Made by a program: the position numbers and the translations under genes
In this document: piece after piece, positions 1 through 64,000 of the stretch
Layout: each line of letters begins with the position of its first letter
Numbering within the stretch: position 1 is the first letter of the stretch
Notes under the pieces: model-generated
What the model was told of the DNA's origin: nothing
Databases searched by the model: none
The model's input: the letters and a program-made list of their open reading frames with translations, nothing else
Assembly: GCF_009707485.1 (NCBI RefSeq)
Contig: NZ_CP046121.1
Location: 496,001 to 560,000 of the forward strand
DNA: 64,000 bases
Reading direction: 5' to 3'
Source: Nostocoides sp. HKS02
Lineage (GTDB): Bacteria > Actinomycetota > Actinomycetes > Actinomycetales > Dermatophilaceae

Positions 1-83
1 GCAACGTCTTCGCGCACCCCACCCTGTCCGAGGCGGTCAAGGAAGCCGTCGAGGGCATCGCCGGCCACATGATCAACCTCTGA
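1..83 (+). CDS. Dihydrolipoamide dehydrogenase-like protein, C-terminal end (partial)
   Basis: Only the last 26 codons are present, in the frame starting at base 3 and ending in TGA at 81-83. The visible residues include AHPTLSEAVKEA. The His-Pro-Thr-Leu-Ser-Glu block is the conserved C-terminal dimer-interface segment of dihydrolipoamide dehydrogenases (E3), where the His-Pro pair completes the partner subunit's active site. Related disulfide oxidoreductases share part of it, so the exact family member is inferred. The next gene starts 10 bases later on the same strand, so co-transcription is possible. Confidence 0.75.
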   Translation, partial: NVFAHPTLSEAVKEAVEGIAGHMINL

Positions 84-93
84 GGGCCGACCG

Positions 94-684
94 ATGTCGC
101 GGGTGTCGCTGCCCATGCACACCGAGCGCCTCGTGCTGCGCAGCCTGCGCCCGGGGGACGAGGCGGACGTGTTCGCCTACCGCTCGATCCCCGAGGTCGT
201 GCGCTACATCCCGGGAGCGCCCAAGACCCGCGAGCAGGTGGCCGACCTGGTCGCCGAGCGCGCCACGGCCGGTCGCCTCGAGCCCACCTCGCCGATCCTG
301 ACCCTCGCGGTAGAGCTCGATGGGCGGGTCGTGGGCGACGTGCTGCTGCACCTCGACGGACTCGACGGCCATGACGGCCGGCAGGCCGAGGTGGGCTGGG
401 TGTTCGCACCCGACGTGGCTGGGCACGGTTACGCCACCGAGGCCGCGAGGGCCTTGGTCGACGCTGCCTTTCGCGAGGTGGGAGCGCACCGGGTCTGGGC
501 GAAGCTCGAGCCCGAGAACACGCCGTCGTCCCGGATCTGCGAACGACTCGGGATGCGGCACGAGGCGACCTTCCGCCAGGCCTCGTGGTTCAAGGAGCGC
601 TGGACCGACCTCGCCATCTACGCGGTGCTCGCCGAGGAGTGGGGGGCGTCCGGTCAGGCGTCGTCCCGCCCCGTCGGAGGCTGA
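94..684 (+). CDS. GNAT-family N-acetyltransferase, RimJ/RimL type
   Basis: The 196-residue protein begins THTERLVLRSL-like (residues 8-18), typical of RimJ/RimL-type acetyltransferases that acetylate the N-terminal amine of ribosomal proteins or small amines with acetyl-CoA. The acetyl-CoA loop (motif A) is seen around residues 106-120 as VFAPDVAGHGYATE, followed by a conserved Asn/Arg-rich helix with SSRICERLGMR. The substrate cannot be told from sequence. ATG at 94 lies 10 bases after the upstream stop, without a strong ribosome-binding site. The C-terminus has a short Ser/Gly-rich tail. The gene is followed closely by a C5/G5 hairpin. Confidence 0.85.
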   Translation: MSRVSLPMHTERLVLRSLRPGDEADVFAYRSIPEVVRYIPGAPKTREQVADLVAERATAGRLEPTSPILTLAVELDGRVVGDVLLHLDGLDGHDGRQAEVGWVFAPDVAGHGYATEAARALVDAAFREVGAHRVWAKLEPENTPSSRICERLGMRHEATFRQASWFKERWTDLAIYAVLAEEWGASGQASSRPVGG

Positions 685-687
685 CAC

Positions 688-702
688 GCCCCCTCGATGG
701 GG
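688..702 (+). terminator. Short GC hairpin after the acetyltransferase
   Basis: CCCCC and GGGGG flank the loop TCGAT four bases after the stop codon. There is no T run, so it is at best a weak actinobacterial-type terminator. Confidence 0.35.
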
Positions 703-721
703 GTGCGCACGACTGATACGC

Positions 722-746
722 CACTGCTCGCTGTGAGTGAGCAGTG
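722..746. promoter_or_regulatory. 25-bp palindrome upstream of the XRE regulator gene
   Basis: CACTGCTC (722-729) and GAGCAGTG (739-746) are perfect inverted repeats around a 9-bp centre in which positions 731/737 and 732/736 also pair. It sits just ahead of the XRE regulator, so a self-binding operator is the simplest reading. It overlaps the GTG at 737, an argument against translation starting there. Confidence 0.55.
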
Positions 747-811
747 ACGTAACGCTTGGTCCGACCCTGCGGGAGGGGCTCGCTGTCGGTGGGTCGTGGG
801 AAGTTCGGACC

Positions 812-1360: not shown

Positions 1361-1381
1361 GGCGCGCGCTGGGGGCGCTGG

Positions 1382-1894: not shown

Positions 1895-4324
<2,430 letters not shown>

Positions 4325-4411: not shown

Positions 4412-5632
4412 ATGGCAGCAGATCGAACGTTCGTGGTGGTCGGCGGCGGGCTTGCGGGAGCCAAGGCGGTGGAGCAGCTGCGCGAGCTGGGGTTCGACGG
4501 CCAGCTGGTCCTGTTCGCCGGTGAGGAGCACCTGCCGTACGAGCGGCCGCCGCTGTCCAAGGACTACCTGAAGACCGGTGAGAAGCTCGAGGACGCGTTC
4601 GTCCACGACCAGCAGTGGTATGCCGACCACGACGTCGACCTGCGCACCGGCACCCGGGTGGCCGCGATCGACCGCGCCGCCAAGGCCGTCGTCACCGAGG
4701 CGGGGGACAGGGTCGAGTACGACCGGCTGCTGCTCGCCACGGGGAGCTCGCCGAGGACGCTCTCGCTCCCGGGGTCGACGCTCACCGGCGTGCTGAGCCT
4801 GCGGACCATCGAGGACAGCGACGCCATCCGCGGGGCCCTTCGGCCCGGGCGCCGGGTCGTCCTCATCGGGGGAGGGTGGATCGGACTCGAGGTGGCCGCC
4901 GCAGCGCGCGAACGGGGCGCTCAGGTCACCGTGCTGGAGTCCCTGGAGCTCCCGCTGGTGCGGGTGCTCGGACCGACGGTCGCCCAGGTCTTCGCAGATC
5001 TGCACCGCGAGCACGACGTCGACGTGCGCACCGAGGTCACGGTCGAGGCGATCGAGGGCGATGGTTCGGTGACCGGGGTACGGCTGGCCAGCGGCGAGGT
5101 GGTTCCTGCCGACACGGTGATCGTCGGGATCGGCGCGGCTCCCAACGTCGAGCTGGCGCAGGACGCAGGTCTGGACGTCGACAACGGCATCACCTGCGAC
5201 GCCGTCGGCCGCACCAGTGACTGGGACATCTTCGCCGTAGGCGATGTGGCCAATGTCGAGCACCCGTTCCTCGGCCACCGGGTGCGCGTCGAGCACTGGG
5301 CCAATGCGCTCAACCAGCCGCAGATCGTGGCGCCGGCGATGCTCGACGAGGACGGGCCCGAGCCGGAGCTGCCGTACTTCTACACCGACCAGTACGACCT
5401 CGGCATGGAGTACACCGGCCTGGCCGACCCCAGCGACGAGGTCGTGGTCAGGGGCGAGCTCGCCTCCCGCGAGTTCATCGCCTTCTGGACCCGGGACGGC
5501 CGCGTCATCGCCGGGATGAACGTCAACATCTGGGATGTCACGGAGCCGATCAAGGCCCTGATCCGGACGCGTGCCGCCATCGACCCAGCCCGGCTGGCCA
5601 ATCCCTCCGTCCCCCTCGAGGATCTCGCCTGA
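4412..5632 (+). CDS. FAD-dependent NAD(P)H oxidoreductase, ferredoxin/rubredoxin reductase type
   Basis: The 406-residue flavoprotein has an FAD Rossmann motif (GGGLAGAKAVEQLR, from residue 11), the PYERPPLSK block typical of putidaredoxin/rubredoxin reductase-like enzymes, an NAD(P)H Rossmann motif (GGGWIGLE, about 153-160), an FAD-binding DIFAVGD segment and a C-terminal reductase domain. Such enzymes pass electrons from NAD(P)H to a ferredoxin, usually for a P450 or dioxygenase, but no ferredoxin or oxygenase gene is adjacent, so the partner is unknown. ATG at 4412 lies six bases after an AAGGCT box. The preceding pnp terminator indicates a separate transcript. Confidence 0.9.
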   Translation: MAADRTFVVVGGGLAGAKAVEQLRELGFDGQLVLFAGEEHLPYERPPLSKDYLKTGEKLEDAFVHDQQWYADHDVDLRTGTRVAAIDRAAKAVVTEAGDRVEYDRLLLATGSSPRTLSLPGSTLTGVLSLRTIEDSDAIRGALRPGRRVVLIGGGWIGLEVAAAARERGAQVTVLESLELPLVRVLGPTVAQVFADLHREHDVDVRTEVTVEAIEGDGSVTGVRLASGEVVPADTVIVGIGAAPNVELAQDAGLDVDNGITCDAVGRTSDWDIFAVGDVANVEHPFLGHRVRVEHWANALNQPQIVAPAMLDEDGPEPELPYFYTDQYDLGMEYTGLADPSDEVVVRGELASREFIAFWTRDGRVIAGMNVNIWDVTEPIKALIRTRAAIDPARLANPSVPLEDLA

Positions 5633-5657: not shown

Positions 5658-6410
5658 GTGAGCGACACGATCAGGGTGGCCGTCATCGGAGCCAACGGCC
5701 GAATGGGTTCTGAGGTCTGCCGGGCCGTGGATGCCGCTGAGGGCCTCGAGCTGGCTGGCCGGTTCGACGCCGGGGACGACCTCGGTGACCTCGGCGGGGC
5801 GCAGGTGGTCGTCGAGTTCTCCGTGCCCGACGCGTCGCCGGCGAACGTCGCGTACTGCGTCGAGCGCGGCGTCCACGTCGTCGTCGGCACCACCGGCTGG
5901 GACGACGACCGGCTGGACGCGCTTCGGGGCCAGCTGGCCGAGCACCAGGCCGTCGGCGTGCTCATCGCCCCGAACTTCGCGATCGGCGCGATCCTCATGA
6001 TGCGTTTCGCCCAGCAGGCGGCGCGCTTCTACGAGTCGGTCGAGGTCGTCGAGCTGCACCACCCCGGCAAGGTCGACGCGCCGTCCGGCACCGCGGCCCG
6101 GACCGCACGGCTGATCGCCCAGGCCCGCTCGGACGCCGGTCTCGGTGACGTCCCGGACGCCACCACCCAGGACCCCGATGGCGCGCGGGGGGCCCGCGTC
6201 GACGGCATACCGGTGCACTCGGTCCGGCTGCGCGGGCTGGTCGCCCACCAGGAGGTCCTGCTCGGCGCGGAGGGCGAGATGCTCACCCTGCGCCACGACT
6301 CGTTCGACCGCGCCTCGTTCATGCCGGGGGTCCTTGAGGGCATCCGCGGGGTCGGCGCCCACCTCGGCCTCACCGTCGGGCTGGAGCACTACCTCGGACT
6401 GGACGCCTGA
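5658..6410 (+). CDS. dapB: 4-hydroxy-tetrahydrodipicolinate reductase
   Basis: The 250-residue enzyme reduces hydroxytetrahydrodipicolinate with NAD(P)H in the diaminopimelate/lysine pathway. Visible motifs are the N-terminal nucleotide-binding VAVIGANGRMG, the GTTGW block and the substrate-binding HHPGKVDAPSGTA (from about residue 134). Length is normal for the family. The GTG at 5658 was chosen because the protein then starts just before the Rossmann fold and a -10 box abuts it; an upstream ATG at 5571 lies inside the previous gene. dapA and dapF, for other steps of the pathway, are elsewhere in this window. The stop codon abuts the next gene's GTG. Confidence 0.96.
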   Translation: MSDTIRVAVIGANGRMGSEVCRAVDAAEGLELAGRFDAGDDLGDLGGAQVVVEFSVPDASPANVAYCVERGVHVVVGTTGWDDDRLDALRGQLAEHQAVGVLIAPNFAIGAILMMRFAQQAARFYESVEVVELHHPGKVDAPSGTAARTARLIAQARSDAGLGDVPDATTQDPDGARGARVDGIPVHSVRLRGLVAHQEVLLGAEGEMLTLRHDSFDRASFMPGVLEGIRGVGAHLGLTVGLEHYLGLDA

Positions 6411-6761
6411 GTGCGCGAGAGGGTCACTGCGGTCGTCCTGCTGGTCGTCCTCGGGTTCTACAGCGCGACCATCGGCTGGCGGGGGGTGGAGCTCATCCGT
6501 GACGGGCGCCTCGTGCCGGTCCTGCTGGGGATCGCGGTCATCCTCGTGCCGGTGCTGGCGCTGGTCGCGATGGTGCCGCTGGTCCGGCTGGCTCGGGACG
6601 GCGCGGCGATGATGGCGCACGCACGCGAGCACGGCGCGCAGGGAGAGTGGGGCGAGGAGCTGGCGCAGGCGGAGGTATGCCGGGTGGCCGGCGACCGGGC
6701 TCGCGAGCAACGCCACTTCCGCGCCGCGGTCCGAGCCTGGCGGACCTCCCGCCCCGCCTGA
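6411..6761 (+). CDS. Small two-helix membrane protein, unknown function
   Basis: The 116-residue protein has two predicted membrane helices (about residues 6-22 and 37-60) separated by a short charged loop (RDGR). A soluble, Arg/Glu-rich tail follows. Its GTG start directly follows the dapB stop with no intervening base, so it is almost certainly translated with dapB. I do not recognise a family. The gene ends just before a long inverted repeat and converges on azlD. Confidence 0.7.
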   Translation: MRERVTAVVLLVVLGFYSATIGWRGVELIRDGRLVPVLLGIAVILVPVLALVAMVPLVRLARDGAAMMAHAREHGAQGEWGEELAQAEVCRVAGDRAREQRHFRAAVRAWRTSRPA

Positions 6762-8596: not shown

Positions 8597-8626
8597 TTGC
8601 AGAAGCCTGTAACAGGCGGGCATACT
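8597..8626 (+). promoter_or_regulatory. paaA promoter
   Basis: TTGCAG (8597-8602), an 18-bp spacer and CATACT (8621-8626) lie six bases before the paaA ATG, giving a leaderless mRNA. Confidence 0.6.
8605..8617. promoter_or_regulatory. Palindrome 2, inside the paaA promoter spacer
   Basis: GCCTGTAACAGGC is a perfect 13-bp palindrome centred at 8611. It is 32 bp (about three helical turns) from palindrome 1, with the same TGTAACA core. Its place between -35 and -10 suits a repressor. Confidence 0.6.
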
Positions 8627-8632: not shown

Positions 8633-9668
8633 ATGTACGGCAACGACTTCGCCACGGACGCCACGGACGCCGCCGACCGCCTGCCCGGTCCGGATGAGCC
8701 GCTCAACGCCGCGGAGTCCGGGCAGTTCGACGACCTCATCGAGGCCGAGCGCCGCATCGAGCCGCGCGACGAGATGCCCGACGCCTACCGCCAGACGCTG
8801 ATCCGTCAGATCGCCCAGCACGCGCACTCCGAGATCATCGGCATGCAGCCCGAGGGCAACTGGATCAGCCGGGCCCCCAGCCTGCGCCGCAAGGCGATCC
8901 TCATGGCCAAGGTGCAGGACGAGGCCGGTCACGGGCTGTACCTCTACAGCGCCGCCGAGACGCTGGGCGTCGACCGCGAGGACCTGCTGGACCGGCTGCA
9001 CACGGGTCGTCAGAAGTACTCCTCGATCTTCAACTACCCCACGCTGACCTGGGCCGACTGCGGGGCGATCGGCTGGCTCGTCGACGGCGCCGCGATCATG
9101 AACCAGGTGCCGCTGTGCCGCTGCTCTTACGGCCCCTACGCCCGCGCCATGATCCGGGTGTGCAAGGAGGAGTCGTTCCACCAACGGCAGGGGTTCGAGA
9201 TCCTGTGGACCCTCATGCGCGGCACGCAGGCCCAGCAGGCGATGGCGCAGGATGCCGCTGACCGGTGGTGGTGGCCGGCCCTGATGATGTTCGGGCCGCC
9301 CGACACCGGGGACGCCGCCTCGACCGGCGGCCATACCAGCCAGTCCATGGCGTGGGGCATCAAGCGGTTCAGCAACGACGACCTGCGTCAGAAGTTCGTC
9401 GACATGATGGTGCCGCAGGCCGATCGCCTCGGCCTCACCCTGCCCGACCCCGAGCTGCGGTGGAACGCCGAGCGCGGCCACTACGACTTCGGGCCGATCG
9501 ACTGGGACGAGTTCTGGCGGGTGCTCAAGGGTGACGGGGCGTGCAACGCCGAGCGACTCGCGCACCGTGTGGCCGCCCATGACGAGGGGGGCCTGGGTCC
9601 GCGAGGCCGCCACGGCATACGCCGCGAAGCAGGCCGAGGCGCGACGTGCCCGGGTCGACGTCGCATGA
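8633..9668 (+). CDS. paaA: Phenylacetyl-CoA epoxidase catalytic subunit PaaA (apparent frameshift near the end)
   Basis: PaaA is the di-iron subunit of the 1,2-phenylacetyl-CoA epoxidase that starts aerobic phenylacetate breakdown. The sequence shows the family's blocks: [30 protein letters not shown] with carboxylate/His iron ligands, and [12 protein letters not shown] with the second ligand set. After about residue 318 the frame slips at a G6 run (9586-9591). Removing one G restores the expected end ([20 protein letters not shown]...) and a TGA at 9666-9668 overlapping paaB by ATGA, giving 344 residues. As written, paaA reads straight into paaB. Sequencing error is likely, though a real fusion cannot be excluded. 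Confidence 0.92.
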
Positions 9669-9964: not shown

Positions 9965-10717
9965 GCGAGCTCGCGGCACCGTACATCCAAGGCCTCGCCG
10001 ACGACGCGCTCGTCTACGCCCAGCGGCTCGGGGAGTGGATCTCGCGCGCTCCCCAGATCGAGGAGGACCTGGCGCTGGCCAACATCGGCCTCGACCTGCT
10101 CGGCCAGGCGCGGGTCCTGCTGACCCGGGTGGGTGAGCTGGACGGGAGCGGCCGGTCCGAGGACGACCTGGCGTACTTCCGGGACGAGCGCGAGTTCCGC
10201 AACGTGCACCTCGTCGAGCAGGAGCGCGCTGGCTTCGGCTTCGAGATGGCGCGGCTGCTGTGGTTCGCGAGCTACCAGTGCGAGCTGTATGCCGCGCTGC
10301 GCGCTTCGTCGGACCCCATCCTCGCCGGGGTGGCGGAGAAGGCCCTCAAGGAGGTCGACTACCACCGCGACCACGCGACCCAGTGGGTGCTGCGCCTCGG
10401 CGACGGCACCAGTGAGTCCCACGAGCGGATGCAGCAGGGACTCGTCGACGTGCTGCCGTATGTCGACGAGCTTGTTCGAGGACGACGAGGCTTCTGTCGC
10501 CGCCGCGCAGGCCGGACTGGGCGTGCTGCCGTCGACCCTCCACGACGCTGTCGTCGACCGGGTGGCGGGGGTCGTCGCCGAGGCGACGCTCGAGCTGCCC
10601 ACCGAGACGCGCTGGCGCTCGCGCGGCGGACGGACCGGCATCCACTCCCGGCCGATGGGTTACCTCCTTGCCGAGCTGCAGCACATCGCCCGATCCCACC
10701 CGGGTGCGACGTGGTGA
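9961..10717 (+). CDS. paaC: Phenylacetyl-CoA epoxidase structural subunit PaaC (apparent frameshift)
   Basis: PaaC is the structural partner of PaaA. The N-terminal part ([34 protein letters not shown]) and middle ([16 protein letters not shown], [20 protein letters not shown]) are clear. At 10471-10474 the sequence reads CTTG where CTG is expected. Dropping one T joins YVDEL to [16 protein letters not shown] and continues to [24 protein letters not shown], giving 251 residues, a normal length. The GTG at 9961 overlaps the paaB stop. It is probably functional with a base error in this assembly. Confidence 0.9.
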
Positions 10718-11208
10718 CCGCCGTCGTGAGCTCCGCGGTGGCACAGGCGATTGCCGATGTCCCCGACCCCGAGGTGCCGGTGGTGTCCATCGAGGACCTC
10801 GGCATCCTGCGAGACCTCCAGGTCGACGAGGCCCGCCGCCACGTCGCGGTGACCATCACGCCGACCTACTCGGGTTGCCCGGCGATGGAGGCGATCGAGG
10901 CGCGCATCCGGCATACGGCGAGGGTCAACGGGTTCACCTGCGAGGTCCGCACCCAGCTCAGCCCGGCGTGGACCACCGACTGGATGAGCGAGCGGGGTCG
11001 CGCGCGGCTCCGCGAGTTCGGCATCGCGCCGCCGGGGCGGGCTGCTGACGGCCCGGTGACCGTCGCCCTGCGGCGTCGGCTCGTCGCGTGTCCGCAGTGC
11101 GGCAGCACCGACACCGAGGAGCTCGCGCGGTTCGGGTCGACCGCCTGCAAGGCGCTGCGCCGGTGCCTGGCCTGCCGCGAGCCGTTCGACGAGTTCAAGG
11201 CGCTGTGA
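10714..11208 (+). CDS. paaD: Phenylacetate degradation protein PaaD (MIP18/DUF59 family)
   Basis: The 164-residue protein has an N-terminal DUF59/MIP18 domain (DVPDPEVPVVSIEDLGI, TPTYSGCPAMEAIE) and a C-terminal zinc-ribbon-like segment with two CxxC pairs (CPQC about 38 residues from the end, then CLAC). PaaD is thought to help assemble the iron centres of the epoxidase. The GTG at 10714 overlaps the paaC stop (GTGA). It is intact, lying between two frameshifted neighbours. Confidence 0.93.
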   Translation: MTAVVSSAVAQAIADVPDPEVPVVSIEDLGILRDLQVDEARRHVAVTITPTYSGCPAMEAIEARIRHTARVNGFTCEVRTQLSPAWTTDWMSERGRARLREFGIAPPGRAADGPVTVALRRRLVACPQCGSTDTEELARFGSTACKALRRCLACREPFDEFKAL

Positions 11209-13658: not shown

Positions 13659-13727
13659 ACACCGCGGTCCGGCATACCGACGCACCATGGCCGACGGACC
13701 ATGGCGGGTGCAGCCTGACGGGGGCGA

Positions 13728-13739: not shown

Positions 13740-14630
13740 ATGAGCACCACGTCACCGTTCGGCCGCCTCCTGACGGCGATGGTCAGCCCCATGCGCCCCG
13801 ACGGCAGCCTGGACCTCGAGGGCGCGCGCCGGCTGGTGGCCCACCTGCTCGACACCGGCCACGACGGGATCGTCGTCAACGGCACCACCGGCGAGTCCGC
13901 CACGCTCAGCGACGACGAGAGCATCCAGCTGGTCGAGCTCGTCGCCGAGGAGGCCGGCGGCCGCGCCGCGGTGGTTGCCGGAGTCGGCTCGAACGCCACG
14001 GCGCACAGCGTCGAGATGGCCCACCGTGCGCTCGGCGCCGGCGCCACCGGCCTGCTGCTGGTCTCGCCCTACTACACCAAGCCCACCCAGCCCGGTCTGG
14101 TCGCGCACTGCCGCGCGGTGGCCGACGCCACCGACCTGCCGGTGATGCTCTACGACATCCCGGGCCGCACCGGCATCCCGTTCGACACCGCCACGCTCCT
14201 CGAGCTGGCCGCGCACGACCGCATCGTCGCGGTCAAGGACGCCAAGGGGTTGCCCTGGGAGACGACCAAGGTCCTGGCGGCCACCGATCTCCTGTACTTC
14301 TCCGGCGCCGACGAGACCAACCTGCCGTGGCTCGCGATGGGCGCGACCGGGGTCGTCAGCGTGGTGGGCCACGTGGCCGGGCGCGAGTATGCCGCGATGA
14401 TCGCGGCCGTCGACCAGGGTGACCTCGCGCAGGCGCGCGCCATCCACCACCGGCTGGTCCCGGCGGTCGACGCCCTCATGACCACCTCGCAGGGCGCGAT
14501 CATGGCCAAGGCCGCCATGGTCGAGCTGGGCATCATCGAGCATCCGACCGTGCGGCTCCCGCTGGTCGAGTCACCGCCCGAGCACCTCGACCTCCTTCGT
14601 GCCGGGCTCAAAGAGTCAGGACTGCTGTGA
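13740..14630 (+). CDS. dapA: 4-hydroxy-tetrahydrodipicolinate synthase
   Basis: The 296-residue TIM-barrel aldolase condenses pyruvate with aspartate semialdehyde. Seen are the substrate-binding NGTTGESATLS block (about residues 45-55), the SPYYTKPTQ block, the catalytic Tyr in YDIPGRTG (about 138) and the Schiff-base Lys in VAVKDAKG (about 166). Length is normal. The ATG at 13740 is leaderless. The gene overlaps rnj by GTGA; this dapA-rnj pairing is common in actinobacteria and suggests co-expression. Confidence 0.97.
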   Translation: MSTTSPFGRLLTAMVSPMRPDGSLDLEGARRLVAHLLDTGHDGIVVNGTTGESATLSDDESIQLVELVAEEAGGRAAVVAGVGSNATAHSVEMAHRALGAGATGLLLVSPYYTKPTQPGLVAHCRAVADATDLPVMLYDIPGRTGIPFDTATLLELAAHDRIVAVKDAKGLPWETTKVLAATDLLYFSGADETNLPWLAMGATGVVSVVGHVAGREYAAMIAAVDQGDLAQARAIHHRLVPAVDALMTTSQGAIMAKAAMVELGIIEHPTVRLPLVESPPEHLDLLRAGLKESGLL

Positions 14631-38727: not shown

Positions 38728-38772
38728 GCACGGCATACCCGGCGGTGCGCAGCACGTACCCTTGTCCGTGCG

Positions 38773-50786: not shown

Positions 50787-53114
50787 ATGGCCACCCTCGA
50801 CGAGCTGTTGCACGCTGCCGTCCTCGGTGTCGGGGGAGTCGAGCGTCCAGGTCAGGTCGAGATGGCCCACGCGGTCCAGGACGCCATCGTGGCCGAGGAG
50901 CACCTGCTCGTGCAGGCCGGCACCGGCACGGGGAAGTCGCTCGCCTACCTCCTGCCGGCCGTCATGCACGCCCAGAAGACCGGCAAGCCCGCTGTCGTCG
51001 CGACGGCGACCCTCGCACTGCAGGCACAGCTGGTCGACCGCGACCTCCCGCGGCTGGCCGAGGCGGTCACCCCGCTGCTCGGGCGTCGGCCCACCTACGG
51101 ACTGGTCAAGGGGCGCCGCAACTACCTGTGTGCCCACAAGCTCGAGGGTGGCTTCCCCGACGACGAGGGCCTGTTCGAGGTCGCCGAGGTGGACCGCGCC
51201 GCATCCAGGCTCGGGCAGGAGGTCGTGCGGCTGCGCGAGTGGGCCGACGAGACCCAGTCGGGCGACCGCGACGAGCTCGTACCCGGCGTGAGCGAGCGGG
51301 CCTGGCGTCAGGTGTCGGTCAGCGCCCACGAGTGCCTCGGCGGCACCTGCCCGATGATCGCCGACTGCTTCGTCGAGCGCAGCCGCGAGGCAGCCAAGGA
51401 CTGCGACGTCATCGTCACCAACCACTCGTTCATGGCGATCGACTCGTTCGAGGGGCGCCAGATGCTGCCCGAGCACGACCTGCTCGTCGTCGACGAGGCC
51501 CACGAGCTGGTCGACCGCGTCACCTCGACCATCACCGACGAGCTCACGGCGCCCATGGTGGCTGCGGCCGCCAAGCGCGCCGGACGGCTCGCCGAGTCCA
51601 CCGAGGCCGTCGACGACGCGTCGGTGTTCCTCCAGGGCGTGCTCGACGAGCTCCCCGAGGGCAGGCTCACCGGCATCCCGGACGCGTTGTCCCTCGCCCT
51701 CGCCCGGGTCCGCGACACCGCGCGCCAGGTGCAGAGCGAGCTCAAGCCCGAACGGGGGGTCGAGCCCGACGGCGGTCGCAAGGTCGCCCAGGCGGCGATC
51801 GAGGAGGTCTTCGAGAACTCCTCACGCATCCTCGAGCAGCGCGAGCTCGACGTGGTCTGGGTCAACCGTGACCCACGGCGTGGGTCGGTGCTGAGAGTAG
51901 CGCCCATGAGTGTCGCGATGTTGTTGCGAGACAAGGTCTTTGGCGATCGCACCGTGGTGATGACGTCCGCCACCCTCGAGCTGGGCGGCACCTTCGACGC
52001 GCTCGCCGGGACGATGGGACTGCGTGGCGAGGGCGCCCCGACCTGGCGCGGGCTCGACGTGGGCAGCCCCTTCGACTACCCCCAGCAGGCCATCGCCTAC
52101 GTCGCCCAGCACCTGCCGTCGCCCGGCCGCGACGGCCTCAGCACGCAGACCCTCGACGAGATCGAGGCACTGGTGCGCGCCGCCGGCGGCCGCACGCTGG
52201 GCCTGTTCTCGTCGATGCGGGCGGCGCGCGAGGCGACCGAGGCGATGCGCGAGCGGTTCGACGGAGACCTCGGCTTCCTCTGCCAGGGCGACGACCAGAT
52301 CACGACGCTGGTCAGGCAGTTCGCCCGCGACCCGGCAACCTGCCTGTTCGGCACCCTGACGCTGTGGCAGGGCGTCGACGTGCCGGGATCGGCCTGTCAG
52401 CTCGTCATCATCGACCGGATCCCGTTCCCCAGGCCCGACGACCCGCTGTCCTCGGCCCGCTCGCAGGCCATCGCTCGCATGGGTGGCAACGGGTTCATGG
52501 CGGTGTCGGCCACCCATGCAGCCCTGCGGCTCGCCCAAGGAGCGGGCCGGCTGATCCGGCGTGCGGACGACCGTGGGGTCGTGGCGTTCCTCGACTCGCG
52601 CATGATGACCGCGCGGTATGCCGGCTTCCTCCAGCGCTCGCTGCCCCCGTTCTGGCCCACGACCGACCGCGAGCGCGTGCTGGCGGCGCTGCGGCGCCTC
52701 GACGAGACCGCCGCCCCGCCACTGACGGTCCACGAACCAGCGCTGCGCGGCGTCGCTGGTGCCGTGGCGGGCAGCACCGGGGGACGGGTCGGCGAGGACG
52801 CCGCCGAGCACCCCCGCCCCGTGGCCCTGGACCCGCCGGCTCCGGACGTGCCGGCCGTGGACCCGCCGGCTCCGGACGTGCCGGCCCTGGACCCGCCGGC
52901 TCAGGACGTGCCCGCGGAGGAGCCCGTGTCGGCGCCCGTTGCAGCCGGTTCCGCGTGGACCGCTGAAGCCGACGAGGAGCTGCGGGACGGCGTCGAGCTC
53001 GGGCTCTCGCTCGAGGAGCTCGCCGAGAGCCTCGAGCTGACGGAGGACGTCGTGGCCGCCCGCCTGGCGAGCCTGCGCCTCGAGGTCGTGCCCGGAGCCC
53101 CACGACTGATGTGA
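50787..53114 (+). CDS. dinG: DinG-family ATP-dependent DNA helicase
   Basis: The 775-residue XPD/DinG-type helicase has Walker A AGTGTGKS (residues 44-51), four cysteines suited to a 4Fe-4S cluster (near residues 115, 183, 188 and 193), a DEAH box (about 236) and FGTLTLWQGVDVPG late in the motor. It unwinds DNA 5'-3', probably at R-loops. A Pro/Asp-rich linker of three 10-residue repeats (LDPPAPDVPA) leads to a C-terminal 50-residue block (WTAEADEELRDGVELGLSLE) resembling a helix-turn-helix, an actinobacterial addition. Confidence 0.93.
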   Translation: MATLDELLHAAVLGVGGVERPGQVEMAHAVQDAIVAEEHLLVQAGTGTGKSLAYLLPAVMHAQKTGKPAVVATATLALQAQLVDRDLPRLAEAVTPLLGRRPTYGLVKGRRNYLCAHKLEGGFPDDEGLFEVAEVDRAASRLGQEVVRLREWADETQSGDRDELVPGVSERAWRQVSVSAHECLGGTCPMIADCFVERSREAAKDCDVIVTNHSFMAIDSFEGRQMLPEHDLLVVDEAHELVDRVTSTITDELTAPMVAAAAKRAGRLAESTEAVDDASVFLQGVLDELPEGRLTGIPDALSLALARVRDTARQVQSELKPERGVEPDGGRKVAQAAIEEVFENSSRILEQRELDVVWVNRDPRRGSVLRVAPMSVAMLLRDKVFGDRTVVMTSATLELGGTFDALAGTMGLRGEGAPTWRGLDVGSPFDYPQQAIAYVAQHLPSPGRDGLSTQTLDEIEALVRAAGGRTLGLFSSMRAAREATEAMRERFDGDLGFLCQGDDQITTLVRQFARDPATCLFGTLTLWQGVDVPGSACQLVIIDRIPFPRPDDPLSSARSQAIARMGGNGFMAVSATHAALRLAQGAGRLIRRADDRGVVAFLDSRMMTARYAGFLQRSLPPFWPTTDRERVLAALRRLDETAAPPLTVHEPALRGVAGAVAGSTGGRVGEDAAEHPRPVALDPPAPDVPAVDPPAPDVPALDPPAQDVPAEEPVSAPVAAGSAWTAEADEELRDGVELGLSLEELAESLELTEDVVAARLASLRLEVVPGAPRLM
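52827..52916 (+). repeat. 30-bp tandem repeat within dinG
   Basis: Three units (52827-52856, 52857-52886, 52887-52916) encode LDPPAPDVPA, VDPPAPDVPA and LDPPAQDVPA. Copies one and two differ by one base, so the array may vary in copy number. Confidence 0.85.
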
Positions 53115-54282: not shown

Positions 54283-54302
54283 ACGCGGCATACCCGCGTT
54301 TT
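54283..54302 (+). terminator. Hairpin with T run upstream of rpsT
   Basis: ACGCGG (54283-54288) pairs with CCGCGT (54294-54299) around loop CATAC, followed by TTTT (54299-54302). The loop is part of the repeated GGCATAC motif. Confidence 0.55.
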
Positions 54303-56619: not shown

Positions 56620-56718
56620 CGAGGTGGGACGGGTGCGGGTGGTACGTCACCGGCATACCGGCGCGCATGGGAGACTGTGCTGATCGCTGTCCCGACGTCC
56701 GTGAGGTTCTGAACACCC

Positions 56719-58569
56719 GTGTCACCCATGGCCCGCACCGCGCTGCAGCCCCACGCGACGCCGCCGGACCTGATCCGGAACTTCAGCATCATCGCCCACA
56801 TCGACCACGGCAAGTCCACGCTGGCCGACCGGATGCTCCAGGTCACGGGCATCGTCGACGATCGCGCCATGCGCGCGCAGTACCTCGACCGCATGGACAT
56901 CGAGCGTGAGCGCGGCATCACCATCAAGAGCCAAGCGGTGCGTATGCCGTGGGAGCTCGACGGGGTGACGTACTGCCTCAACATGATCGACACCCCCGGT
57001 CACGTCGACTTCACCTACGAGGTGTCCCGGTCGCTGGCCGCCTGCGAGGGTGCCGTGCTGATCGTCGACGCCGCCCAGGGCATCGAGGCGCAGACCCTGG
57101 CGAACCTCTACCTCGCCATGGAGAACGACCTCACCATCATCCCGGTGCTCAACAAGATCGACCTGCCCGCGGCCCAGCCCGAGAAGTTCGCCGAGGAGCT
57201 CGCCGGGCTGATCGGCTGCGAGCCCGAGGACTGCCTGCGGGTGTCCGGCAAGACCGGCGCCGGCGTCGAGCCCCTGCTCGACCAGATCGTCCGCCAGCTG
57301 CCGCCGCCGGTCGGAGATCCGGATGCGCCGGCCCGCGCGATGATCTTCGACTCGGTCTACGACACCTACCGCGGGGTCGTCACGTACGTCAGGGTCATCG
57401 ACGGCAACCTCAACCCGCGCGAGAAGATCGCGATGATGTCCACCCGGGCGACGCACGAGCTGCTCGAGATCGGGGTCAGCTCGCCCGAGCCCACCCCGGC
57501 CAAGGGCCTCGGGGTCGGCGAGGTCGGCTACCTCATCACCGGCGTGAAGGACGTGCGCCAGTCCCGCGTCGGCGACACGGTGACCAATGCCGCCAAGCCC
57601 GCCACCACGGCCCTCGGTGGCTACCGCGACCCCAAGCCGATGGTCTTCTCCGGCCTCTACCCGATCGACGGCTCGGACTACCCCGACCTGCGTGATGCGC
57701 TCGACAAGCTCAAGCTCAACGACGCCGCCCTGGTCTACGAGCCGGAGACGTCCGCGGCGCTGGGATTCGGTTTCCGGATCGGCTTCCTCGGCATGCTCCA
57801 CCTCGAGATCGTGCGCGAGCGGCTGGAACGCGAGTTCGACCTCGACCTCATCTCGACTCTGCCCAACGTCGTCTACGACGTCACCATGGACGACGGCACG
57901 GTGCTCACGGTCACGAACCCGAGCGAGTTCCCGTACGGCAAGGTGACCTCGGTGACCGAGCCGGTGGTGCGGGCGACCGTCCTGGCCCCGAGTGAGTTCA
58001 TCGGCGCGATCATGGAGCTGTGCCAGCAGAAGCGCGGCTCGCTGCGGGGTATGGACTACCTCTCGGAGGAGCGCGTCGAGATGCGCTACACCCTGCCGCT
58101 GGCCGAGATCGTCTTCGACTTCTTCGACCAGCTGAAGTCGCGCACCCGCGGCTACGCCTCCCTGGACTACGAGCCCGACGGCGACCAGGTGGCCGACCTC
58201 GTCAAGGTCGACATCATGCTCCAGGGTGAGACCGTCGATGCGTTCTCCTCGATCGTCCACAAGGACAAGGCCTACGCGTACGGCGTGATGATGGCGGGCA
58301 AGCTCAAGGACCTCATCCCGCGCCAGCAGTTCGAGGTGCCGATCCAGGCGGCCATCGGGTCGCGGATCATCGCCCGCGAGAACATCCGGGCGATCCGCAA
58401 GGACGTGCTGGCCAAGTGCTACGGCGGCGACATCAGCCGCAAGCGCAAGCTGCTCGAGAAGCAGAAGGCCGGCAAGAAGCGGATGAAGAACATCGGCACG
58501 GTCGAGGTGCCACCTGAGGCGTTCATCGCGGCCCTGTCCTCCGACGCGGGCGACAAGACCAAGAAGTAG
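56719..58569 (+). CDS. lepA: Translation elongation factor 4 (LepA)
   Basis: The 616-residue GTPase has G1 AHIDHGKST (residues 26-34), G2 [12 protein letters not shown]3 DTPGHVDF and G4 NKIDLP, then the EF-G-like domains and the LepA-specific C-terminal domain ([22 protein letters not shown]). It acts on stalled or maturing ribosomes. The GTG at 56719 or the ATG at 56728 could be the start. The upstream 139-bp gap holds a terminator and one GGCATAC copy. Confidence 0.97.
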
Positions 58570-58617: not shown

Positions 58618-59100
58618 ATGGTCGACACCTACGCGCTGTACCGACGCCTCGCGGCATACCCGCAGGGGCACCGGCTGTTCTCCCTCGTGTTCGAGCAGGC
58701 CGCACCGTACTTCCGCACGGCGCGGCCGCGGTTCGTCCAGCTCGGTCCCAACCGCGCCGAGCTGACGATCCGCAAGCGTCGCCGCGTGCAGAACCACCTC
58801 GGCACCGTCCACGTGATCGCCATCTGCAACGGTCTCGAGGCGGCCATGGGTGCGCTCGCCGAGGCGACCATCCCGCCGACCCGCCGGTGGATCCCGCGGG
58901 GCATGGAGGTCGACTACACCGCCAAGGCGACGACCGACATCCGGTGCCTCGCGCAGACCGACCCGGCCGACTGGGCCCGACCCGGCGACGTCGAGATCCC
59001 CGTACGCGTCACCGCGGTCCGCGACGACGGCACGCCGGTCGTGCAGGGCACCATCCGCCTCTGGGTCACCGACAAGCCGGCGGGCAAGCCGGCACGCTGA
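58618..59100 (+). CDS. DUF4442 hotdog-fold protein
   Basis: The 160-residue protein matches the DUF4442/PaaI-like thioesterase group, with QNHLGTVHVIAICNGLEAAMG (about residues 60-80) carrying the conserved Asn-His and helix. A C-terminal strand ends VVQGTIRLWVTDKP. It may hydrolyse acyl-CoA, but no substrate is known. It is leaderless and is followed at once by the convergent Nudix gene. Confidence 0.88.
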   Translation: MVDTYALYRRLAAYPQGHRLFSLVFEQAAPYFRTARPRFVQLGPNRAELTIRKRRRVQNHLGTVHVIAICNGLEAAMGALAEATIPPTRRWIPRGMEVDYTAKATTDIRCLAQTDPADWARPGDVEIPVRVTAVRDDGTPVVQGTIRLWVTDKPAGKPAR

Positions 59101-59658: not shown

Positions 59659-60452
59659 GCCCGCAACCGCGCGCGCAGGGCGTCGACCTCCGCCTGGCTC
59701 CACCCCTGCTCACCTAGCCAGCCGGCGGCGCCGCCGTGCCGCTGCGCCAGCACCGTGAGGATCCGCTCCATCGTCTCGGCTCGCGGGGTGTGGTGCGCCA
59801 GGGGCTGGTCGCGCAGGGCCTCGCCGTATGCCGGCCGGGGCAGCAGCCGGGCGACGATCTGTTCGATGCGCTCGGCGCTCGCGACGTAGTCCGCGACCAC
59901 GTCCTCGTCGGCCACGCCGGCGACCGAAAGGGTCAGGCCGACGACGGTGCCGGTGCGGTCCTTGCCCGCGGCGCAGTGGACGACCGTCGCGCCAGTGCTC
60001 CTCGCGATCACGTGCAGGGCCGCACTGACCGAGTCGGGGCGGTCGACGAGGTAACCCAGGTAGTGGCTGGCCCAGTAGTCGTCGTCCCGGCGTGGCGGCT
60101 TCGGCCGGCCGCTGCGCTTCGACCAGGGCAGCACGAGCGCGGCCGCCGCGGCGGCGTCGGCGTCGATCGCGTCGTCGGCGACCAGCGAGTGGTGGTGGTG
60201 CGGCACGAGCTCGCGGGTGCGCAGCGGCCCGGGACCCTCGAGGTGCACCTCGACGGTGCTGCGCAGGTCGACGATGTCGCTCACCCCGAGCTCACCCACG
60301 AGGCGTTCGACGTCGGCGTCGGAGAGGTCCTGGAGGTTGTCCGAGCGCAGCAGCCGACCCGGAGCGATCCGGCCGCCGTCGGTCGTCGGCAGTCCGCCGA
60401 CATCGCGCATGTTCACGACGCCGTCGAGGTCGATCCAGTGGGGAGTGGTCAC
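59655..60452 (-). CDS. Tyrosine-protein phosphatase (MptpB-like)
   Basis: The 265-residue enzyme has the phosphatase P-loop VVHCAAGKDRTGTV (Cys about residue 160, the HCxxGKDR pattern shared by MptpB and inositol phosphatases). NMRDVGGLPTTDGGRI at the N-terminus is the Y_phosphatase3 start. Related enzymes dephosphorylate phosphotyrosine or phosphoinositides; some are secreted virulence factors, but no signal peptide is present here. Upstream lie two unusual hairpins. Confidence 0.92.
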   Translation of the reverse strand: MTTPHWIDLDGVVNMRDVGGLPTTDGGRIAPGRLLRSDNLQDLSDADVERLVGELGVSDIVDLRSTVEVHLEGPGPLRTRELVPHHHHSLVADDAIDADAAAAAALVLPWSKRSGRPKPPRRDDDYWASHYLGYLVDRPDSVSAALHVIARSTGATVVHCAAGKDRTGTVVGLTLSVAGVADEDVVADYVASAERIEQIVARLLPRPAYGEALRDQPLAHHTPRAETMERILTVLAQRHGGAAGWLGEQGWSQAEVDALRARLRA

Positions 60453-60739: not shown

Positions 60740-61966
60740 ATGCCCAGCGCCCTGCCGGACGGCGACCCCGCACCGCCTGACGGTCGGCTGCCGGCGCGTG
60801 CGCTGCAGACCCTGGGCGAGCGCCCGTTCGGCGTCTACCTCCACGTGCCGTTCTGCTCGGTGCGCTGCGGGTACTGCGACTTCAACACCTACACCCTGAC
60901 CGAGCTCGGGGCGGACGGCGCCAGCGTCGCCACCTTCGCCGATGCAGCCCTGCGCGAGGTCGACTTCGCGGCGAACGTGCTCGGCGACCCGCCCCGAGTC
61001 GACACGGTGTTCGTAGGCGGTGGCACTCCCACGATGCTCGCGGCGGCCGACCTCGCGCGGATGCTCGGCGGCATACGCGACACCTTCGGGCTGGCGGCGG
61101 ACGCCGAGGTGACCACCGAGGCCAACCCCGACTCGGTCACCGCCGAGGGCCTCGAGCTGCTGGCCGGGGCCGGCTTCACCCGGGTGTCCATCGGTATGCA
61201 GTCCGCGGTGCCCCACGTCCTGCGCACCCTCGAGCGCACCCACGACCCGGCCAACGTGGTGCGCGCGGTGAGCGCGGCCCGGGCCGCAGGTCTCCAGGTC
61301 AGCCTGGACCTCATCTACGGCACGCCCGGCGAGAGCCTGGAGGACTGGCGCGCCAGCCTCGACGCGGCGACCGACCTCCAACCCGACCACGTCTCGGCGT
61401 ATGCCCTGGTCGTCGAGGACGGCACCAAGCTGGCGGCCCAGGTGCGTCGCGGACAGGTGCCGGCGCCCGAGGACGACGACGAGGCGGCCAAGTACGAGCT
61501 CGCCGACGACCACCTCGCCGGCGCCGGCTACGGGTGGTACGAGGTGAGCAACTGGGCGCGTCGGTCCGATGCCCGGTGCCGCCACAACGAGGGGTACTGG
61601 AGCGACGCCAACTGGTGGGGGATCGGCCCGGGCGCGCACAGCCACGTCGGCGGCGTCCGGTGGTGGAACGTCAAGCACCCCAACGCGTATGCCGCCCGCG
61701 TGGGCGGCGGTCTCAGCCCGGCTCACGGGCGCGAGACCCTCACGGACGAGCAGCGCTACGACGAGCGGGTCCTCCTCCAGGTGAGGCTGGCCGACGGCTT
61801 GCCGCTCGAGACCCTGGCGCCGCACGGCCGCACCGCCGTGGCCGGGCTGATCGCCGAGGGTCTGGTCGACGGCAGCGCGGCCCTGCGCCGCCGACGGGTC
61901 GTGCTGACGAGGCAGGGCCGCCTGCTCACCGACACCGTCGTGCGTCGCCTTGTCGGTCCGGGCTAG
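60740..61966 (+). CDS. hemW: Radical SAM heme chaperone HemW
   Basis: The 408-residue protein carries the radical-SAM motif CSVRCGYC (residues 39-46) followed by DF, the HemW/HemN-type variant. GGGTPT, the SIGMQS block and GIGPGAHSHV follow, with a C-terminal winged-helix region. HemW binds heme and inserts it into target proteins; it is not the coproporphyrinogen oxidase it was once called. HemW, DUF3097 and hrcA in this order are typical of actinobacteria. Confidence 0.95.
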   Translation: MPSALPDGDPAPPDGRLPARALQTLGERPFGVYLHVPFCSVRCGYCDFNTYTLTELGADGASVATFADAALREVDFAANVLGDPPRVDTVFVGGGTPTMLAAADLARMLGGIRDTFGLAADAEVTTEANPDSVTAEGLELLAGAGFTRVSIGMQSAVPHVLRTLERTHDPANVVRAVSAARAAGLQVSLDLIYGTPGESLEDWRASLDAATDLQPDHVSAYALVVEDGTKLAAQVRRGQVPAPEDDDEAAKYELADDHLAGAGYGWYEVSNWARRSDARCRHNEGYWSDANWWGIGPGAHSHVGGVRWWNVKHPNAYAARVGGGLSPAHGRETLTDEQRYDERVLLQVRLADGLPLETLAPHGRTAVAGLIAEGLVDGSAALRRRRVVLTRQGRLLTDTVVRRLVGPG

Positions 61967-61999: not shown

Positions 62000-62431
62000 T
62001 CAGCGCACCCAGTCCGGCGTCAGGGGGTAGCGGTACCACTCGCCGTTGTTCGCCTTGACCGCGGCGATGATCTGGAAGACCACCGAGGCGACCGCCGTGG
62101 CGACGAGGAACGGGATGCCGATGAGAACAATCGACAGCAAACCGAACACGAGGTACGCGATGAGCAGCACGAGCTGGAAGTTCAGGGCCTGCGCAGCGTG
62201 GAACCGGATGAACGGGCCGCGGTCGCGCAGCACGAGGTAGATCACGAGAGGGCCGAGGAACGGCAGCCCGACGAGGGCCGCGAGGAACGGCGACAGGTGG
62301 ACCAGCGTGGACCACAGTCGCTCGTCCGACTGCGACATGGGGTTCGCCGACGGCGCACTGTCGTAGTTCGGCGCACTGCCATAGTTCTGGCCGCCCTCGG
62401 GCGGCTCGGTGGGGGCTGGCTGGTCGGTCAT
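62000..62431 (-). CDS. DUF4870 membrane protein
   Basis: The 143-residue protein has a Pro/Ser/Asn-rich soluble head of about 30 residues and three membrane helices (LSPFLAALVGLPFLGPLVIY, LVLLIAYLVFGLLSIVLIGI, and FLVATAVASVVFQIIAAVKA). The DUF4870 core RDRGPFIRFHAAQALNFQ lies between the first two. Function unknown. An ATG at 62431 follows GGAGGACCCCC-type purine-rich DNA. Confidence 0.9.
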   Translation of the reverse strand: MTDQPAPTEPPEGGQNYGSAPNYDSAPSANPMSQSDERLWSTLVHLSPFLAALVGLPFLGPLVIYLVLRDRGPFIRFHAAQALNFQLVLLIAYLVFGLLSIVLIGIPFLVATAVASVVFQIIAAVKANNGEWYRYPLTPDWVR

Positions 62432-62517
62432 GGGGGTCCTCCGGACTCGGGTGTGCTGCTCACCCAGTCAAACGCATCGCACGCCCTCTGGACACTGGTT
62501 TCGGGGTGCGTTCAGGG

Positions 62518-62543
62518 CCTGGTCAGGGCCGACCCTGACCAGG
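62518..62543. terminator. Hairpin overlapping the DUF3097 stop codon
   Basis: CCTGGTCAGGG (62518-62528) pairs perfectly with CCCTGACCAGG (62533-62543) around CCGA. The DUF3097 stop codon (62523-62525) lies in one arm. Confidence 0.65.
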
Positions 62544-63416
62544 GTGCGTGGGTTCGGTGACGAAGTCGATGAGCTCCTCGACGCTGGCGAGCAGGGTCGG
62601 CTCGAGGTCGGCGTAGCTGCGCACGGTCCCCAGGATCCGTTTCCAGGCCATGGCGATGTCGGCCTGGGTCCGGTGCGGCCAGCCCAGGTGCGCGCAGATC
62701 CCGTCCTTCCACGAGGTGCCGCGGGGGATGACCGGCCAGACCGAGAGGCCGAGCCGTTCAGGACGGACTGACTGCCACACGTCGACGTAGGGGTGGCCGA
62801 GGACGCGGACGTGCGCGGCATACGGACCCGACGACGCCCCCTGGACGATCCGGTGCTCCTTGGTGCCCGGCACGAGGTGGTCGACGAGCACCGCCATCCG
62901 GCGTCCCGGACCGGGCTGGAACTCGGCGATGGCGCCGGCGAGGTCGTCGACGCCGTCGAGCATCTCGACGACGACCCCCTCGATGCGCAGGTCGTCTCCC
63001 CACACCTTCTCCACGAGCTCGGCGTCGTGGCGGCCCTCGACGAAGATGCGCGAACCGCTGGCCACCCGCGCGCGCACCCCGGCCACGGCCCGGGAGCCGG
63101 AGGCGGTGCGCGACGCCACCTGCCGCGCCGCGGCGAGCTCGGCGCGGGCCCCGGCCTTCGGCGGCGTCAGGACCACCGGGCCGCCGTCGAGCAGGAAGCC
63201 CGGGCCGAGCGGGAATCCCTTGGACCGCCCGCGACGGTCCTCGAGGTGCACGACGTACATGCCGCCGGCCTTCTCGACCCGCACCACCGCACCGCACCAG
63301 CCCGTCTCGACGTCCTCGACGACCAGACCGTTCTCGGCCTCGACCTCGCGCGATCGACCCCGCGCGGGGGCACGCCAGTCGCCGGAGAGCACGTCGGCGC
63401 CATAGCGGTCTTTCAC
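62523..63416 (-). CDS. DUF3097 family protein
   Basis: The 297-residue protein starts VKDRYGADVLSGDWR, the DUF3097 N-terminus. A central part contains FVEGRHDAELVEKVWGDDLR, which resembles a Toprim-like nucleic-acid-binding core (EGxxD) and VLVDHLVPGTKE. Function unknown; it is conserved beside hemW and hrcA in actinobacteria. The GTG at 63416 was chosen because TACGGT (63429-63424) ends seven bases before it. Confidence 0.9.
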   Translation of the reverse strand: MKDRYGADVLSGDWRAPARGRSREVEAENGLVVEDVETGWCGAVVRVEKAGGMYVVHLEDRRGRSKGFPLGPGFLLDGGPVVLTPPKAGARAELAAARQVASRTASGSRAVAGVRARVASGSRIFVEGRHDAELVEKVWGDDLRIEGVVVEMLDGVDDLAGAIAEFQPGPGRRMAVLVDHLVPGTKEHRIVQGASSGPYAAHVRVLGHPYVDVWQSVRPERLGLSVWPVIPRGTSWKDGICAHLGWPHRTQADIAMAWKRILGTVRSYADLEPTLLASVEELIDFVTEPTHPGQGRP

Positions 63417-63499
63417 GCCCCAGACCGTATGCCGCCGGGCGGCGTCCCAGCCGGTGGCGCGCCGGGTGGGGCGCTCGTCGGCAGGGGAACGACATAGAC

Positions 63500-63526
63500 T
63501 TGGCACTCGTAGAGTCTGAGTGCCAG
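63500..63526. promoter_or_regulatory. CIRCE operator upstream of hrcA
   Basis: TTGGCACTC, N9 and GAGTGCCAG match the CIRCE consensus TTAGCACTC-N9-GAGTGCTAA. HrcA, the next gene, is the repressor of this site. A TAGACT box at 63495-63500 abuts the left arm. Confidence 0.93.
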
Positions 63527-63576
63527 CCGGCGGGCCGGTCAGGAACACCCGCCGACAGCGCAGAGGAGGAGAGGCC

Positions 63577-64000
63577 ATGAGTGAGGAACGTCGACTCGCC
63601 GTCCTCCGCGCGATCGTGCAGGACTACGTGCAGACCTCCGAGCCCGTGGGCTCCAAGTCCCTGCTCGAGCGCCACCAGCTCGGTGTCTCGGCCGCGACGG
63701 TGCGCAACGACATGGCCGCCCTCGAGGAGGAGGGGCTCATCGCCGCCCCGCACACCTCCGCCGGGCGCGTGCCCACCGATGCCGGCTACCGCCTGTTCGT
63801 CGACCGGCTGAGCTCGGTCAAGCCGATGTCGGTGGCGGAGCGCTCCGCCATCGCGCAGTTCCTCCAGGGTGCTGTCGACCTCGACGACGTCGTCGAGCGC
63901 ACGGTGCGGCTGCTCGCCTCCCTCACCCGCCAGGTCGCCGTGATGCAGTACCCGTCGCTCACCCGCTCGTCGGTGCGCCACGTCGAGTTCGTGCCCATGG
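63577..64000 (+). CDS. hrcA: Heat-inducible transcription repressor HrcA (partial)
   Basis: The first 141 residues are present; the gene runs off the window. The N-terminal winged-helix domain ([64 protein letters not shown]) is a textbook HrcA. It represses dnaK/groE-type genes at CIRCE sites in the absence of heat stress. GAGGAGAGG lies just before the ATG at 63577. With a CIRCE site in its own promoter it should repress itself; dnaJ often follows outside the window. Confidence 0.97.

Follow-up and report, generated by a model that had tools for sequence, protein, structure and literature searches.

Throughout the chromosome of Nostocoides sp. HKS02 (Actinomycetota; Dermatophilaceae), and in many other members of its family, the octamer GTATGCCG occurs far more often than composition predicts. 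It was first noticed, as the heptamer GTATGCC/GGCATAC, in a sequence-only reading of a 64,000-nt stretch of this chromosome (contig NZ_CP046121.1, positions 496,001 to 560,000), hereafter the window. The word is enriched independently of codon usage and equally on both strands, within a single family of its order. It has given rise to dialects, its copies are kept at orthologous places, and the genomes concerned possess competence genes. These features suggest that GTATGCCG may work like a DNA uptake sequence, a reading to which we give about an even chance and which stops short of filing the word as one.

Exact counting found 52 heptamers in the window (28 GTATGCC and 24 GGCATAC), with a largest gap between neighbors of 2,821 bases and a GC content of 71.6%. 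The earlier figures of about 52 copies with this split, a gap ceiling of about 2.8 kb, and a GC content near 71% were thus accurate. So was the remark that GTACGCC/GGCGTAC is several times rarer (11 copies). The over-representation itself stands, with a lower expectation than first given: a second-order Markov model derived from the window predicts 2.8 heptamers rather than about six. The extension to GTATGCCG, put at about 46 copies, is found in 47, against 1.1 expected under the same model. In a chromosome sample of 464 kb, consisting of the window and 20 stretches of 20 kb, GTATGCCG was observed 342 times for 9.4 expected under a Markov model, whereas its last-base variants (GTATGCCA and the words ending in C and T) were each seen five times, for 4.4, 5.7, and 4.2 expected. 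As these variants are at chance level and GTATGCCG is far above it, the unit is the octamer and not the heptamer. Five heptamers of the window lack the final G (8399, 8619, 44703, 47969, and 61399) and are therefore of a kind found at chance level, among them the one at 8619, which had been presented as a motif copy in the −10 region of paaA. Over the whole chromosome of 3,482,451 bases, GTATGCCG is present in 1,273 forward and 1,264 reverse copies (2,537 in all), compared with 94 and 65 (159) for the control word with its letters reversed. The genome-wide Markov check proposed with the original observation leaves the counts far above the model.

Among the 24 one-letter neighbors of GTATGCCG in the 464-kb sample, only GGATGCCG (100 observed, 42.6 expected) and CTATGCCG (14 and 5.3) are in clear excess. 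The other 22 sum to 217 occurrences for 276 expected, and the biggest deficit is that of GCATGCCG (33 vs. 54). The 47 copies of the window, all exact matches, are listed below by position and strand; placement outside called genes comes from the gene finder.

2119..2126, plus, GTATGCCG
2853..2860, minus, GTATGCCG
4618..4625, plus, GTATGCCG
6203..6210, minus, GTATGCCG
6675..6682, plus, GTATGCCG
9613..9620, minus, GTATGCCG
10287..10294, plus, GTATGCCG
10909..10916, minus, GTATGCCG
13670..13677, minus, GTATGCCG, outside called genes
14387..14394, plus, GTATGCCG
16533..16540, minus, GTATGCCG
18393..18400, plus, GTATGCCG, within FtsK frame
19290..19297, plus, GTATGCCG, within FtsK frame
19637..19644, minus, GTATGCCG, within FtsK frame
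20617..20624, plus, GTATGCCG, outside called genes
22275..22282, plus, GTATGCCG, outside called genes
23118..23125, plus, GTATGCCG
23684..23691, minus, GTATGCCG
26379..26386, plus, GTATGCCG, within CinA frame
28868..28875, minus, GTATGCCG, outside called genes
31130..31137, minus, GTATGCCG
31813..31820, plus, GTATGCCG
33372..33379, plus, GTATGCCG
33977..33984, minus, GTATGCCG
35911..35918, plus, GTATGCCG
38731..38738, minus, GTATGCCG, outside called genes
40161..40168, plus, GTATGCCG
41140..41147, minus, GTATGCCG
43571..43578, plus, GTATGCCG
44717..44724, minus, GTATGCCG
44914..44921, plus, GTATGCCG, outside called genes
45007..45014, minus, GTATGCCG, outside called genes
47202..47209, plus, GTATGCCG
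47244..47251, plus, GTATGCCG
47857..47864, minus, GTATGCCG
50604..50611, minus, GTATGCCG
52616..52623, plus, GTATGCCG
54286..54293, minus, GTATGCCG, holA-rpsT intergenic, small stem-loop
55901..55908, plus, GTATGCCG
56651..56658, minus, GTATGCCG, outside called genes
56942..56949, plus, GTATGCCG
58652..58659, minus, GTATGCCG
59826..59833, plus, GTATGCCG
61069..61076, minus, GTATGCCG
61687..61694, plus, GTATGCCG
62816..62823, minus, GTATGCCG
63427..63434, plus, GTATGCCG, outside called genes

The copies described as intergenic, with heptamers at 13671, 38732, 54287, 56652, and 63427, all lie outside called genes. Genes were called by a simple GC-frame finder that misses some of them, so that "outside" is approximate. 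The copy at 54287 had been placed in a terminator loop; by our own reading of the sequence it lies in a loop closed by a 5-bp stem, with TTTT after the stem, and a pattern scan found no terminator there.

The two strands carry GTATGCCG equally. Over the 21 segments of the sample the split is 177 to 165, without heterogeneity (chi-square 9.9, 21 df, P = 0.98). This segment-wise test does not require the position of the replication origin, which was not located. It bears out the argument, already made from the even split in the window, against a KOPS-like polarity, and a polar segregation signal or FtsK-orienting word was rejected on this basis. The spacing of the copies departs only a little from random, toward evenness (coefficient of variation 0.95, where random placement gives a mean of 1.04 and a minimum of 0.88 of 500), with 14 gaps below 100 bp in any orientation for 24.5 at random and 6 gaps above 4 kb for 13.3. 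The 10-kb pieces with a GC content below 0.68 contain 2.0 copies on average (n = 5), and the others 8.0 (n = 41; Spearman 0.72): GTATGCCG is rare in low-GC, probably acquired, DNA. The sequences around the octamer add little, with at most 0.3 bit per position in the noncoding flanks of 71 copies of this genome, and a single position reaching 0.77 bit in a set of 105 from across the family, orthologous copies included.

Codon usage does not account for these copies. In the 464-kb sample, called genes contain 270 of them (0.71 per kb), and the remaining 72 fall elsewhere (0.86 per kb). As the sequence-only reading had anticipated, the main coding readings are TAT-GCC (132 of 270) and, on the other strand, GCA-TAC (79 of 270). 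When a G stands on both sides of a Tyr-Ala(GCC) pair, its tyrosine codon is TAT in 132 of 144 cases; with a single G the figure falls to 17 of 73, and with none to 7 of 68. As the choice of TAT depends on the flanking G bases, it follows letters outside the codon pair, and the bias therefore persists once codon pairs are considered.

GTATGCCG is a property of one family. We defined as strong the genomes with 100 copies per Mb or more and a count no less than double that of the reversed word, and as weak those with at least 40 per Mb; these cut-offs are our own, the counts were copied by hand, and genome sizes were rounded to 0.1 Mb. The 186 family genomes comprise 108 strong, 11 weak, and 67 nonenriched ones, and a strong member is present in 31 of the 53 genera. 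Strong genomes contain 102–1,356 copies per Mb (median 453), for an average of 13 in the 67 nonenriched genomes. Four genera (g4, g13, g33, and g42) mix strong and nonenriched species. Of 297 genomes drawn from the order, 24 belong to the family, and the other 273, from 19 families, all have fewer than 100 copies per Mb, so that the suggested comparison with related genera gave 108 strong genomes of 186 inside the family and none of 273 outside. The densest of the latter (G395) has 80 per Mb, with 61 per Mb for its reversed control. In a scan of named genomes, 42 of 80 loci were tabulated, 35 of them family-like by name or label and seven from other families. The family-like loci, of 11–21 kb, contain 5–22 copies each with three exceptions, Luteipulveratus (0), Humibacillus sp. 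DSM 29435 (1), and a Humibacillus metagenome-assembled genome (1); the two Humibacillus loci use GGATGCCG (13 and 16 copies). The seven other loci have none. At one protein, the named genomes closest to HKS02 (78–83%) are those of three Phycicoccus sp. strains (Soil802, Root101, and Soil748), of Pedococcus, and of Knoellia koreensis. The single phage examined, TJE1, whose host is a Tetrasphaera, has two copies for 0.94 expected.

Several lineages use a variant of the word. These dialect words preserve G1, A3, T4, G5, C7, and G8. GGATGCCG reaches 2,099–4,480 copies in seven genomes of three genera, for a background of 241–1,336 in other family genomes. Four of the seven are weak for GTATGCCG (G017, 3,816 copies of GGATGCCG; G018, 3,838; G034, 4,480; and G035, 3,619) and one is nonenriched (G178, 3,949). 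The last two, G036 (2,195) and G037 (2,099), also retain GTATGCCG (1,217 and 1,189 copies, respectively). In 60 kb of G029, of genus g14, GTATGNCG occurs with 24 C, 27 G, 20 A, and 9 T. Counts of its non-C forms per 20 kb are 19 for Flexivirga meconopsidis and 20 for Flexivirga caeni, and this common dialect suggests that g14 is Flexivirga. A candidate GTACGCCG dialect of genus g3, with 27 copies in 60 kb of G002 and 19 in 20 kb of G003, is not claimed, because the word is found at 2–9 per 20 kb in seven actinobacteria of other families and shows no excess in 20 kb of G004. Two small single-gene trees, of ComEC with 30 rows and of LeuS with 18, give no direction of change; each requires seven changes of the nonenriched label, five (ComEC) and six (LeuS) of them forced by well-supported branches. 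We read this as many losses of GTATGCCG within the family. The nonenriched label shows some clustering in the ComEC tree, where 17 of 500 shuffles score as low. In the same tree the GGATGCCG genomes G017 and G178 form one clade and G034 lies elsewhere, and this dialect therefore arose or spread at least twice. One stretch of G034 (L076, G034:C1:1-20000) contains 13 GTATGCCG and 2 GGATGCCG, although the dialect of that genome is GGATGCCG. Located at the beginning of a 3.7-Mb contig, in an assembly rated 3% contaminated, it looks as if it came in from a GTATGCCG donor without being rewritten. By our reading of the protein starts, its genes resemble a cobalamin cluster.

Copies of GTATGCCG are kept at orthologous places. 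At the comEA locus of eight genomes, that of HKS02 and those of seven named relatives 78–81% identical to it, the octamer is intact at the orthologous site in 234 of 407 directed comparisons, which are nonindependent pairs. Eleven control octamers of our choice are intact in 107 of 612 comparisons together, and in 0–32% individually. Where a relative differs by one mismatch, the change is T4 to C in 27 of 53 cases, a synonymous change between TAT and TAC.

A self-DNA label comparable with the uptake sequences of Neisseriaceae and Pasteurellaceae would account for this combination. Competent members of the family would preferentially bind or import fragments bearing GTATGCCG, most likely through a Tad/Flp pilus and the ComEA–ComEC route, as in Micrococcus luteus, for which Flp-pilus-dependent transformation is known (PMC4322843 and PMC6370729, accessible parts). 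Octamer-bearing DNA would then be over-sampled in recombination with relatives. Copies would build up to about one per 1.4 kb, stay at fixed orthologous places, and be scarce in foreign DNA, and dialects would drift when the specificity of the reader changes. We infer that the uptake step reads the word, which protein does the reading, and that recombination drives the accumulation. The likeness to uptake sequences, first proposed from density and strand balance, has gained from the family restriction, the dialects, and the conserved positions, and is qualified by the points raised below. The broader proposal, of a first system of this type outside Proteobacteria, in which a Gram-positive family selects its own DNA by an octamer through a Tad pilus and ComEA, with dialects that wall off lineages and many losses, we hold at slightly under even. 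It would be a third self-labeling system, hosted by bacteria that lack an outer membrane and, for the most part, type IV pili, and would mean that such a label arose again. It would also provide a test of where selection takes place, whether at the pilus, at ComEA, or at a later step. With the word kept, changed, or lost on many occasions within the family, comparisons between sister species could be used to map the reader. The label might also aid the laboratory genetics of soil and wastewater actinobacteria. Among the best-ranked matches in the mostly freely accessible literature, we found no report of a genome-wide word or uptake sequence in Actinobacteria or in this family.

The machinery for such uptake is widespread. 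We searched 46 genomes of our choice, 26 enriched (21 strong; G017, G034, and G178 for GGATGCCG; and the weak G002 and G003) and 20 not, with G158, which has a faint GGATGCCG excess, placed among the latter. ComEC and DprA were found in all 46, TadE in 45, and a helicase-linked TadE-like protein in 46 (45 over the cut-off). A ComEA frame is present in 32 of 32 comEC loci, and the ComEA of HKS02 carries SLBB and helix-hairpin-helix domains. A Tad-type competence apparatus thus seems ancestral in the family.

Several observations weigh against the uptake reading. The 20 nonenriched genomes retain ComEC, DprA, and the helicase-linked TadE-like protein (20 of 20, the last once below the cut-off), and TadE (19 of 20), and nonenriched relatives also keep ComEA, so that loss of the motif does not track loss of the machinery. 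As these genes are near-universal in both classes, the machinery alone does not decide who has the word, and the presence or absence of comEC, dprA, TadE, or the helicase-linked Tad locus was rejected as its determinant. ComEA architecture was rejected likewise, being alike in enriched and nonenriched genomes, and no reader protein was found. The type IV pilus marker PilM was matched in 2 of 46 genomes; on this proxy a type IV pilus receptor was rejected, the ComP and ComN receptors themselves not having been searched. In HKS02, comEC (L103:5197-7598; G000:C1:1516197-1518598) is read as two overlapping frames that split the Competence domain, which is nearly whole in a single frame in 42 of 45 other genomes; either the assembly has slipped here or the gene is broken. 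In the LeuS tree the nonenriched label is no more clustered than in shuffles (459 of 500 as low), and the history of the motif is thus very patchy. Close inverted pairs of GTATGCCG, an arrangement that often serves as a terminator among DNA uptake sequences (DUSs) and uptake signal sequences (USSs), are not enriched in the 464-kb sample, where six pairs lie less than 60 bp apart, four of them inverted. To our knowledge, uptake sequences have so far been tied to Gram-negative bacteria. Among the best-ranked literature matches, none dealt by title or opening of the abstract with transformation in this family.

Two of these subjects come with separate observations. In L028 (16838-16855), two inverted octamers form a perfect hairpin outside called genes, the only such pair, which recalls the DUS/USS arrangement. 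As to the Tad locus, no inserted gene common to enriched genomes was seen, with a finder that performs poorly on lower-GC genomes such as G022, and gene content was set aside as a determinant. The flp-tad (flp/tadC) site often holds unrelated genes (G007, G008, G049, G050, G053, G068, G086, G142, and G151), which we read as diguanylate-cyclase-like, phosphofructokinase-like, and transporter genes; it resembles an insertion hot spot. In G086, a frame that we read as a retron-type reverse-transcriptase-like gene lies between tadC and flp (L206:3624-4958).

Among other explanations, we consider unlikely that an orphan methyltransferase, a sequence-specific repair enzyme, or both recognize the octamer and maintain or create its copies, as may be the case for HIP1, which has been linked to orphan methylases (PMC4390886, accessible part). 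Such enzymes would likewise predict genome-wide, codon-independent, conserved copies and dialect shifts upon a change in specificity, and the preponderance of T4 to C among the one-mismatch states of relatives is in their favor. Conversely, GTATGCCG is not palindromic, its one-mismatch neighbors other than GGATGCCG and CTATGCCG are only mildly depleted, and the imported stretch L076 seems to retain its foreign dialect. The N6/N4 methylases of PF01555, the only methylase family tested, with no repair family included, are matched in 18 of 46 genomes (16 over the cut-off), of which 8 belong to the 26 enriched and 10 to the 20 nonenriched ones, and were rejected as a determinant. A methylation or repair motif, first judged equally possible, is the less supported of the two.

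Slightly less probable is a recombination signal of the Chi type, recognized by a helicase-nuclease such as AdnAB, which would protect and channel broken self DNA. The octamer length and the self-DNA logic fit. RecC, of the RecBCD enzyme, is patchy in the family (21 of 46 genomes), with matches in 7 of 26 enriched and 14 of 20 nonenriched genomes (Fisher P = 0.007, uncorrected for kinship), as if another enzyme had taken over. However, the HKS02 genome has no RecC match, yet other enriched genomes do (e.g., G142, with 3,986 copies of the octamer), and the strands are balanced; Chi acting through RecBCD was rejected for want of a RecC match in HKS02 and of motif orientation. We see still less chance for the binding site of a chromosome-organizing or DNA-segregation protein, evenly spread along the replicon. 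The shortage of very short and very long gaps would suit it, but the spacing lies within the random range, polarity of the KOPS kind is absent, and a loss within a genus (G084 vs. G085 and G086) would be unexpected. Finally, the idea that base composition, or a bias in codon pairs or amino acids (Tyr-Ala, Ala-Tyr), makes the word has almost nothing left to commend it: the frequent TAT-GCC and GCA-TAC readings are outweighed by the dependence of the Tyr codon on outer bases, on which codon-pair bias was rejected, by the higher density outside called genes, by the excess over the Markov expectation in the window, and by the lack of similar enrichment in the 273 genomes of other families.

Apart from the motif, one 443-aa open frame of the window (8633-9964) matches PaaA/PaaC (residues 42–318) and PaaB (354–440), and is either a PaaA–PaaB fusion or a joined reading. 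The sequence GGCATACT, just 5′ of its ATG, could be the −10 element of a leaderless promoter.

Chi sites are oriented octamers, genome-wide and over-represented. GTATGCCG is likewise a genome-wide, over-represented octamer, but it is unoriented and its host genome has no RecC match. HIP1 of cyanobacteria (GCGATCGC) is likewise a dense genome-wide octamer that is low in some relatives (PMC4390886), but it is a palindrome with nested methylase sites, which GTATGCCG is not. According to the accessible parts of PMC12616744 and PMC3630211, DUSs and USSs are 9–12 nt long, occur in hundreds or thousands of copies, and form clade dialects on a common core; an inverted-repeat arrangement of copies is also described (PMC12616744). 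GTATGCCG is like them in its density and in not being a palindrome. The USSs of Pasteurellaceae (AAGTGCGGT and ACAAGCGGT) recall GTATGCCG by their short core (9 nt), many copies, and two clade dialects (PMC12616744). They differ in their AT-rich outer parts, the noncoding flanks of GTATGCCG in HKS02 carrying at most 0.3 bit per position. The DUSs of Neisseriaceae are found in Proteobacteria that have type IV pili and a receptor of the ComP type, whereas GTATGCCG belongs to Actinomycetota, with no PilM match in 44 of 46 genomes, and close inverted pairs of the octamer are not enriched. Like GTATGCCG, they are short words with thousands of copies in one family and single-base dialects with a common core (PMC3630211). 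Uptake sequences are the known kind of element that best joins the marks of GTATGCCG: DNA-level, nonpolar, family-bound, dialect-forming, and conserved in place.

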